From Verrucomicrobiia bacterium (lineage in GTDB: Bacteria; Verrucomicrobiota; Verrucomicrobiia; Limisphaerales; UBA8199), in assembly GCA_035946615.1 (NCBI GenBank), contig DASYZB010000118.1, forward strand, positions 1-32,446: a DNA stretch of 32,446 bases. The letters are read 5' to 3'. This document shows positions 26,855-31,134 of the stretch, piece after piece; position 1 is the stretch's first letter, and the number at the start of each line of letters is the position of its first letter. Position numbers and translations under genes: made by a program. A model generated the notes under the pieces. The model did no database searches. It saw only the letters and a program-made list of their open reading frames with translations, and had not been told where the DNA came from.

Positions 26855-26929
26855 TTCTTGGCATCAAATTTGCAATAAATGCGAAACCAGATGCCTAATC
26901 ATGGCGTCTTCTGTCATATTGATACAATT

Positions 26930-28351
26930 ATGAGCGCCGACGACAAGTTTATCCGAGAGCATTACCCGCGCATCGAGGACCTGTTCATTACCCGCCGCCA
27001 GTTTCTGCAGCGGGCGGGGATGGGATTCGGCATGCTGGGGCTCGCGGGGCTTCTCGGGCAGGAGCTGGTTTCCACCGCCCAGGCCGAGACAGTAGCGACA
27101 TTGGCCCCCCGGGACCCGCCGCTCCCGGCCAAAGCCAAACACGTCGTCCACATTTTCGCTCAAGGCGCCCCTTCGCATGTGGACACGTGGGACCCTAAAC
27201 CGGCCTTGGCGCAATATGACGGTCAAAGCATTCCCGGCAGTGATGGAGTAGCGATGGCTTCTCCTTTCAAATTTGAGAAAAAAGGCGCTTCGGGAATTGA
27301 AATCAGCGAAGTATTTCCAAAATTGGGGGAACTGGTGGATGACCTGGCGGTAGTGCGCTCGATGTACACCGATATCCCCGCGCATGAGGTGGCGACGGTG
27401 TTCATGAATACCGGCTCGACGCGCTTTTCGCGGCCAAGCCTGGGCTCGTGGGTTTTATATGGGCTTGGAACCGAGAATCAGAACATGCCGGGTTATATCT
27501 CACTGCGCCCGGGCGGCACACCGCCGGGCGGGAGTTCCAATTGGCAGGCCTCTTTTCTGCCCGGCATTTACCAGGGAGTGAGCATCAACACCCGAATCAC
27601 TTCAGTGAACCAGCTCGTCCAAAACATTCACAACCCCTACACGCCATTGAATGAACAGCGCCGCCAATTGGACCTGGTACACAAACTGAACGAATTACAC
27701 GCGCAAAACTTGCAGAAGGATTCCCAGCTCGAGGCCCGCCTGCAGGCTTTCGAGATGGCCTTCAAGATGCAAACCGAGGCCACTGACGCCTTCGATCTTG
27801 CCAAGGAGCCATCAGCCATGCGCGAGTTATATGGCCGCAGCGCCCAAGGCAACCAGCTCTTGATCGCTCGCCGGCTCATCGAGCGCGGGGTGCGGTTTGT
27901 GCAAGTCTGGGCGGGAGGCTGGGACCATCACCAGGACATCGAGGAGAAGCTCCCCGAGCGCGCCCGAGACATCGATCAGCCCTTAGCTGCCTTTATTGCA
28001 GACCTCAAGCGACGCAATCTTTTCGACAGCACCTTGATTATTTGGGGAGGCGAATTTGGCCGTAAACCGGTGCGGGACAGAAATGGCGGCGAGAATCCCG
28101 GGCGCGACCATAATGGCAAGGCGTTCACGACCGTGCTGGCTGGAGGCGGGGTGCGCGGCGGCATGGTTCACGGGGCTACTGATGAGTTTGGGGCTGCTGC
28201 CGTGGAAAATCGCGTCCACATTCACGACCTGCACGCCACGATTCTTGCCCTGCTGGGCTTCGATCACAAGAAACTCACCTATCGCTATAATGGCCGGGAT
28301 TTCCGGCTTACGGACGTCTCCGGCGAGGTCGTCAAAGCGGTGATTGCTTAG
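26930..28351 (+). CDS. DUF1501 protein with twin-arginine-like signal
   Basis: A 473-residue protein from ATG 26930 (MSADDKF); an earlier ATG at 26879 adds 17 unlikely residues. Residues 22-45 are a twin-arginine-type signal (TRRQFLQRAGMGFGML, hydrophobic stretch, cut near AQAE). The mature part contains HVVHIFAQGAPSHVDTWDPKP, MYTDIPAHEVATVFMNTG, GWDHHQDIEE and LIIWGGEFGRKP, typical of DUF1501, a sulfatase/alkaline-phosphatase-like family with likely metal-binding Asp and His residues in SHVDTWD and GGWDHHQD. In Planctomycetota and Verrucomicrobiota it normally pairs with a DUF1549-DUF1553 protein; here it precedes one, whereas the usual order I know is the reverse. The gap between them is filled by a palindromic repeat. 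Confidence 0.9.
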   Translation: MSADDKFIREHYPRIEDLFITRRQFLQRAGMGFGMLGLAGLLGQELVSTAQAETVATLAPRDPPLPAKAKHVVHIFAQGAPSHVDTWDPKPALAQYDGQSIPGSDGVAMASPFKFEKKGASGIEISEVFPKLGELVDDLAVVRSMYTDIPAHEVATVFMNTGSTRFSRPSLGSWVLYGLGTENQNMPGYISLRPGGTPPGGSSNWQASFLPGIYQGVSINTRITSVNQLVQNIHNPYTPLNEQRRQLDLVHKLNELHAQNLQKDSQLEARLQAFEMAFKMQTEATDAFDLAKEPSAMRELYGRSAQGNQLLIARRLIERGVRFVQVWAGGWDHHQDIEEKLPERARDIDQPLAAFIADLKRRNLFDSTLIIWGGEFGRKPVRDRNGGENPGRDHNGKAFTTVLAGGGVRGGMVHGATDEFGAAAVENRVHIHDLHATILALLGFDHKKLTYRYNGRDFRLTDVSGEVVKAVIA

Positions 28352-28469
28352 TCGTGAAAGAGGCTCAACTTCAACCTGGCGCGGGCGACTTGGCCAATGC
28401 CAGTAGCTCCGTGGAAATCCAGGCTGGGATTTGTGCTCCGGGTCGGATGGTCAGAACCAGTGACCTGGC

Positions 28470-28665
28470 TGTCCCGGAGGGACATCCGACAATAGCCCAA
28501 CGCTTCGGCGTTGGGGAGAGGACGTTGCAGCCCTTTAGTCCCGAAGGGACCGCTGAACCTGCACACTTGCGTCCTCTATTCAGCCGTCCCTTCGGGACTC
28601 ACGCCCCCACACCTATCCCCAACGCTGAAGCGTCGGGCTATTCTCAATCATCCCTCCGGGATGAG
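28470..28665. repeat. Composite palindromic repeat with six hairpins between DUF1501 and DUF1553 genes
   Basis: Six small hairpins sit in mirror order. H1 28471-28483 (gtccc gga gggac), H2 28496-28515 (8-bp stem cccaacgc/gcgttggg with a TTCG loop) and H3 28538-28550 (gtcccgaagggac) are followed by H4 28586-28598, the exact reverse complement of H3, H5 28618-28637, a near reverse complement of H2, and H6 28649-28663, a near reverse complement of H1. The left half (about 28471-28520) matches the reversed right half (about 28613-28665), including aatagccc. I recall such units (conserved translations like SPEGTAE and SRPFGT) scattered in verrucomicrobial genomes. It would fold into an extended structured RNA. 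Confidence 0.8.
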
Positions 28666-28734
28666 AACAAAATCCTGGTTGCATCGGCCGCCGCGCCGGC
28701 GGGTTCGGTCCGTGTCTCGCCGGTTGGAGGTGGC

Positions 28735-31134
<2,400 letters not shown>

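Follow-up and report, generated by a model that had tools for sequence, protein, structure and literature searches.

A composite palindrome beside a DUF1553 gene of a Verrucomicrobiia bacterium is probably a mobile element made of IS200-like transposon ends and contains the Acido-Lenti-1 motif

Introduction

Contig DASYZB010000118.1 of a Verrucomicrobiia bacterium (assembly GCA_035946615.1), analysed over its positions 1 to 32,446, a stretch referred to below as the window, carries a long composite palindrome between a gene for a DUF1501 protein and a gene for a DUF1553 protein, which raises the question of what kind of element lies there. The original prediction, made from the DNA letters without database searches, placed an insertion of six hairpins at 28352-28734 and offered three possibilities, namely a non-autonomous mobile element, a structured RNA or a control point that sets the ratio of the two proteins. 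The first of these is well supported by dispersed copies, by absence of the palindrome from homologous junctions and by inverted units flanking IS200-like genes. We therefore consider, with a probability of about 0.85, that the palindrome is a non-autonomous mobile element formed by the gene-less inverted ends of a small IS200-like transposon (HUH/Y1 type, with a TnpA-Y1 gene). The copy in the window is best read as a gene-less dimer resembling REPINs (doublets of repetitive extragenic palindromes, REPs) and miniature inverted-repeat transposable elements (MITEs), probably mobile in origin and now stranded in the host genome.

A dispersed family of paired three-hairpin units

The repeated part of the palindrome is a core of 199 bp (28470-28668) consisting of two inverted units of about 90 nt with three hairpins each, namely h1, h2 preceded by the motif nTAG, and h3 (Table 1). 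The six hairpins in mirror order and the inverted pair of units claimed by the original prediction agree with the mirror arms, in which 28472-28521 faces 28612-28661 (50 nt, 82% complementary) and, further in, 28537-28557 faces 28579-28599 (21 nt, 95% complementary), and with the list of hairpins, in which h1, h2, h3, h3' and h1' are perfect and the fifth, h2', is imperfect. The two innermost hairpins are exact reverse complements and the loop of h2 is TTCG, both as predicted. Against shuffled sequences, folding gave z = -7.4 for 28330-28760 as RNA and z = -12.3 for 28468-28668 as DNA. The predicted palindrome thus stands but its extent does not, the remainder of 28352-28734 being flank, in which the stretch from about 28424 is common to one other full copy. 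A match of the window to the archaeal signal recognition particle RNA (28.1 bits, gathering cut-off 96.5) was taken as a by-product of the long hairpin.

Searching the host genome (5.6 Mb in 161 contigs) with 28400-28740 gave 66 matches, including about ten further composites and many half units. Eleven composites, that of the window included, were aligned with their flanks and revealed a common core with sharp ends near 28470 and 28668; the flanks were mostly unrelated, with the left side extending further in a few copies. The sequence GTCCCGAAGGGAC occurs 18 times in the host, compared to twice for its reversed control. The general unit comprises h1 (TGTCCCGGAGGGACA), a linker ending in nTAG, h2 (a stem of 8 bp with a loop of 4 nt), a spacer that varies, and h3 with a tail resembling GGCTGAA. 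A covariance model of this unit, R1, was built from 29 host units and found at least 42 matches in the host at E <= 0.1, at least 39 of them at E <= 1e-7; these counts are lower bounds, as 150 of 1669 candidates were scored. At E <= 0.01, R1 matched 31 of the 58 genomes searched, the host included. Hence, other copies of the unit predicted from the window do exist.

Copies in the host and in a second genome (G008) lie mostly between long open reading frames (ORFs) in mechanically made ORF lists; ORFs of unproven reality run into several of these copies, and Pfam domains were present in five of eight ORFs close to host copies. One composite, for example, sits between genes for the glycine-cleavage T protein and a flavin oxidoreductase. 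We looked for two G008 copies in the congener G012. For one of these (L288), both neighbouring genes were found in G012 with a gap of 126 nt versus 304 nt and without the element, and no exact empty site was readable there because the intergenic sequence of G012 had diverged. For the other (L286), the left gene was found in G012 (query 1-570) and a continuous right side was not found; query 949-1077 gave a short match on another G012 contig. A host contig (C134) ends at its position 1 within a composite copy (L012:1-183), suggesting that the repeats break assemblies and are under-counted.

Inverted units flank IS200-like transposase genes

Pfam Y1_Tnp has seven matches in the host, and one of them, the Y1 transposase gene on contig C49, has a composite on each side. 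The first 102 residues of its protein gave 29 matches in 22 of the 58 genomes, and R1 units (E <= 0.1) were present at 22 of these 29 loci. The HUH motif and catalytic Tyr of Y1 transposases are present, residues H53, H55, Y113 and Q117 being invariant in 16 aligned transposases, all six proteins compared with the IS200 model NF033573 scored above its cut-off, and the solved structures related by sequence are transposases, including that of ISHp608.

We assembled an independent set by searching contigs, one genome per species, with the transposase alignment alone and keeping the best 80 of at least 581 relatives. R1 gave 179 matches at E <= 0.05 in this set, distributed over 66 of the 80 loci. 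Among the best 150 matches, 58 lay within 250 nt upstream of the gene match and 58 within 250 nt downstream, and those within 300 nt had a fixed orientation, with 48 on the plus and 10 on the minus strand upstream, and 54 on the minus and 8 on the plus strand downstream. Both ends were found in the expected orientation at 37 of the 80 loci and at least one at 56. Moreover, the more similar a transposase was to the protein heading the alignment, measured as identity, the higher was the best unit score at its locus (Spearman 0.63, n = 80, p = 4e-10; 0.59 in the 66 loci with a match; both uncorrected for relatedness). A whole element is seen on a Planctomycetales contig (L190), where a unit, the gene and an inverted unit together occupy about 680 bp.

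A second Y1 transposase gene of the host (contig C46, L001) is full-length and intact and lies between inverted three-hairpin units of another sequence (L001:1303-1392 and about 1902-1989), composed of CACCGCGTAGCGGTG, GTAG, CCGTGGGCCTCGGCCCACGG and GCGTCGCGTAGCGACGC. The host genome contains 13 matches to the left unit, and R1 did not detect the C46 units. Since these units share the three hairpins but not the sequence, the architecture is common to them and the sequence varies with the lineage. In addition, a long imperfect palindrome was observed upstream of a partial Y1_Tnp match (L007:1161-1214) on host contig C4.

The Acido-Lenti-1 family as part of the unit

The Rfam family Acido-Lenti-1 (RF01687) has been noted near group II introns. 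An Rfam search of 28300-28800 gave two matches to this family above the gathering cut-off (37 bits), one in each unit, and the 46 nt of the model correspond to h2, a CTA linker and h1, that is, two thirds of the hairpins of each unit. The family differs from the units in being listed as an RNA gene and in having no third hairpin, inverted pairing or transposase.

RF01687 matched 46 of the 58 genomes at E <= 0.01 and exceeded its cut-off in 36, compared to none of 14 control genomes. In the wider set of transposase loci it reached the gathering cut-off at 44 of 80 (14, 14, 9 and 7 per 20) with 95 matches, 61 of which lay within 200 nt of the gene match in a fixed orientation (20 of 22 upstream, 34 of 39 downstream). 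No match was found at 20 control DUF1501 loci (of 30; the window's own and that of genome G048 were left out). Seven of eight chosen genomes behind the 80 loci had matches over the cut-off; the genome of locus L200 (Geotalea toluenoxydans) had one weak match. Among the genomes exceeding the cut-off are one with the label Lentisphaera araneosa and the complete Planctomycetes bacterium Pan216 genome. At some transposase loci (L211, L213, L221 and L247) tandem RF01687 arrays were seen on one side of the gene.

Since 2010, Acido-Lenti-1 has figured as a probable RNA whose function is unknown, and it is still treated in this way. In the parts of the literature available here, to which all our statements on published work refer, it appears in a table as a probable RNA that is not cis-regulatory (Weinberg 2010, PMC2864571), is listed in a 2023 paper, and is described in a 2026 paper as little known in function and possibly regulating nearby proteases. 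Those portions of the publications mentioning the family do not name a neighbouring transposase as its cause, and we found no publication linking the two in a search that covered mainly open main texts, supplements and most subscription papers lying outside it. Since h2 and h1, the outer part of the unit, are Acido-Lenti-1, the family most likely represents a DNA signal belonging to mobile elements rather than an RNA gene in its own right. It is likely, though less so than the reading of the window copy itself, that Acido-Lenti-1 serves a widespread lineage of one-gene IS200-like transposons as the module by which single-stranded DNA is recognized. The complete form of this module would be the three-hairpin end (h1, nTAG-h2, h3), and its gene-less dimers, of which the window has one, would have moved in trans in Verrucomicrobiota, Planctomycetota, Acidobacteriota, Bacteroidota and others. 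If so, many genomes need their annotation of Acido-Lenti-1 corrected, the high and patchy copy numbers of the family have an explanation, and its function comes down to a simple question of binding and cutting.

Folded DNA or structured RNA

Many more G-U pairs than seen here are usual in structured RNAs. The stems of the unit do covary: in the 29 host units, 96.0% of cells pair and 21 two-sided changes were counted, whereas slid controls gave no more than 5. Fitting 148 distinct units to R1 produced an alignment that leans to structure, in which all 19 pairs showed two-sided change in a total of 664 cells versus at most 82 in slid controls, and a separate MAFFT alignment (58 units, one per locus) gave 255 two-sided changes versus at most 70. 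In the 148 units, however, G-U cells numbered 41 of about 2644 paired, and 34 one-sided changes stood against 664 two-sided ones. Because G-U pairs are this few, we infer that selection on the DNA hairpin, or on both strands, fits better than selection on an RNA.

This bears on the strongest alternative, in which Acido-Lenti-1 truly is an RNA, either a small one or an element within mRNAs. The window would then contain two of these as an inverted pair, and transposons would simply have the RNA at their ends, for instance for control of the transposase. Such an RNA would account for the Rfam family, the strong covariation and the listing as a probable RNA in Weinberg 2010 (PMC2864571), and units adjoining a transposase gene could have an RNA role in expression there. 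However, the units are inverted on both sides of the gene and lie on opposite strands in every composite, they are dispersed in high copy number, and in their few G-U pairs and few one-sided changes they are unlike most RNAs; hence we regard an RNA as unlikely. As to the structured RNA of the original prediction, Rfam does list two thirds of the hairpins of the unit; the data, however, speak for a DNA signal.

The motif nTAG precedes h2 in 131 of 150 units (ATAG 58, GTAG 35, TTAG 35, CTAG 3), a count that may be favoured by the training of R1 on ATAG units; the C46 units, outside this training, have GTAG. A second candidate foot, CnGA, was present in 38 of the linkers and 42 of the tails of 150 units (about 20 and 16 expected, respectively), and being enriched about two-fold yet confined to a minority of units it was not used as a general mark.

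The gene-less dimer of IS200-like ends could have arisen as follows. Each end of about 90 nt would be a compound recognition unit with an outer h1, nTAG at the foot of h2 and an inner h3. When the strand turns single, for example during replication, the transposase would bind the folded unit and cut near the nTAG foot, in the manner of REP-type and IS200-type enzymes. The dimer may then have moved as single-stranded DNA into sites between genes, and copies may have spread as dimers, halves and arrays.

Comparison with known systems

Several known systems share parts of this arrangement. With REPs, bacterial interspersed mosaic elements (BIMEs) and REPINs associated with REP-associated tyrosine transposases (RAYTs, TnpA-REP), and with REPtrons (defined in PMC6006769; REPtrons and TIRtrons are also treated in PMC3733652), the family has in common inverted hairpin pairs, a TAG-type foot, a flanked gene and gene-less dimers between genes. 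Many dispersed hairpin repeats, often in inverted pairs, are a trait of REPs and REPINs and are found in the unit family as well. In contrast to these systems, each unit has three hairpins instead of one, the foot is nTAG and not strictly GT[AG]G (GTAG in 35 of 150), and the transposases fail the RAYT model.

IS200/IS605 elements are likewise one-gene elements with an HUH/Y1 transposase, and the invariant residues and model matches given above place the proteins in the IS200/IS605 transposase family. Here, however, both ends consist of the same three-hairpin unit in inverted copies, and in the host dimers without a gene far outnumber gene-bearing copies. In TIRtrons (TIRYT; Di Nocera and others 2013, PMC3733652), a tyrosine transposase gene is enclosed by long inverted repeats, which are partly self-complementary and are also dispersed as dimers; the present elements, too, have a transposase gene flanked by long inverted repeats that form a dispersed repeat family, but each repeat is a fixed three-hairpin unit, and a match to RF01687 is not mentioned in the consulted part of PMC3733652. 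The TnpA-Y1 class 3 (Quentin and others 2018, PMC6006769), described from Planctomycetes and Acidobacteria, resembles the present family in taxa, in genes flanked by several atypical structures, in high copy numbers and in a mixture of insertion sequences and REPtrons, as judged from its description; the CnGA foot of the class is found here in a minority of units. The three-hairpin end is a type of compound transposase end without description in the portions of the literature compared, and with a matching transposase in each lineage it offers a new system for how HUH transposases recognize folded DNA.

Weighing the mobile element

A number of observations weigh against a mobile element of this kind. 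The gene on C49, the nearest cognate gene of the host, is frameshifted before the catalytic Tyr, and the host copies may therefore no longer move. None of the six proteins reached the RAYT model NF047646 (cut-off 80 bits), R1, which was trained partly on units with ATAG, had no match at 14 of the 80 transposase loci, and among the first 20 loci of the nearer set RF01687 reached its gathering cut-off at five (11 matches), the host C49 locus not being one of them. The CnGA foot reported for class 3 is present in a minority of units. Within the 29 host units, four pairs showed two-sided change, and 32 of 500 shuffles as well as the +1 slide attained that number; the number of further pair types was attained by 492 of 500 shuffles. 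Finally, neither an exact empty-site junction nor a target duplication was found for the two G008 copies searched in G012.

The broken cognate gene, together with most copies lying far from any transposase, would also be in line with a palindromic repeat that is inert and unrelated to the transposase genes, owes its spread to recombination or replication slippage and is often adjacent to transposases by chance. Nevertheless, R1 matches are concentrated in the 250 nt on either side of the gene and keep a fixed orientation, the unit score tracks transposase identity, and RF01687 is absent from the control loci, which makes an inert repeat very improbable. More doubtful still is an insert translated in frame, like the palindromic elements of Rickettsia, by which DUF1553 would gain a long N-terminal extension beginning at 28354. 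In its favour, the frame is open over 28354-31134, and REPs have been described within genes (PMC3733652). However, 126 of 2000 dinucleotide shuffles were open in the same frame (334 in some forward frame), an open forward frame was present in nine of ten host composites examined, and the lengths of the small indels distinguishing the copies are not multiples of three. A GGAGG also precedes the better-placed ATG at 28735, about where homologs begin, and we rejected a coding insert. The stop-free frame from 28354 to 28734 noted in the original prediction is real, but it does not clearly exceed chance and is a by-product.

The DUF1501-DUF1553 junction

In the window, 383 nt separate the two genes that flank the palindrome (Table 1).

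Table 1. Positions of the palindrome units, their Rfam matches and the flanking genes in the window
Feature	Position	Strand	Details
Unit A	28470..28558	+	h1 28470-28484; linker ending ATAG 28485-28495; h2 28496-28515 (loop TTCG); spacer; h3 28538-28550; tail; R1 97.5 bits
Unit B, inverted copy	28579..28668	-	h3' 28586-28598; h2' 28618-28637; CTATT; h1' 28648-28664; R1 95.0 bits (28578-28663)
RF01687 Acido-Lenti-1, h1+h2 of unit A	28470..28515	-	39.0 bits, gathering 37
RF01687 Acido-Lenti-1, h2+h1 of unit B	28618..28663	+	46.3 bits, gathering 37
DUF1501 gene	26879..28351	+	upstream of insertion; PF07394, 484 bits
PSCyt1-DUF1549-DUF1553 gene	28735..31134	+	downstream of insertion; start placed at ATG 28735

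A DUF1553 homolog adjoins DUF1501 in 19 of the 30 loci obtained, the window's own counted, which leaves 18 relatives with the same gene pair. The palindrome was not found at the junction in any of these 18, and in a scan of 20 DUF1501 loci strong R1 matches were confined to the window's own locus. The DUF1553 homolog is estimated to start at most 42 nt after the DUF1501 stop in ten of the 18 relatives, and a control point for the ratio of the two proteins, as proposed in the original prediction, is without support.

In a genome of another genus (G048), the same junction is estimated at 839 nt (L106:2935-3773) and holds a different hairpin-rich insert, with hairpins in mirror order and an R1 score of 19.9 bits, suggesting that the DUF1501-DUF1553 junction accepts such elements repeatedly. 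In the closest relative (G009, DUF1501 83% identical) the junction is estimated at 184 nt (L100:1560-1743) and contains other repeats, namely tandem GGGTTACAT-like repeats and other short palindromes.
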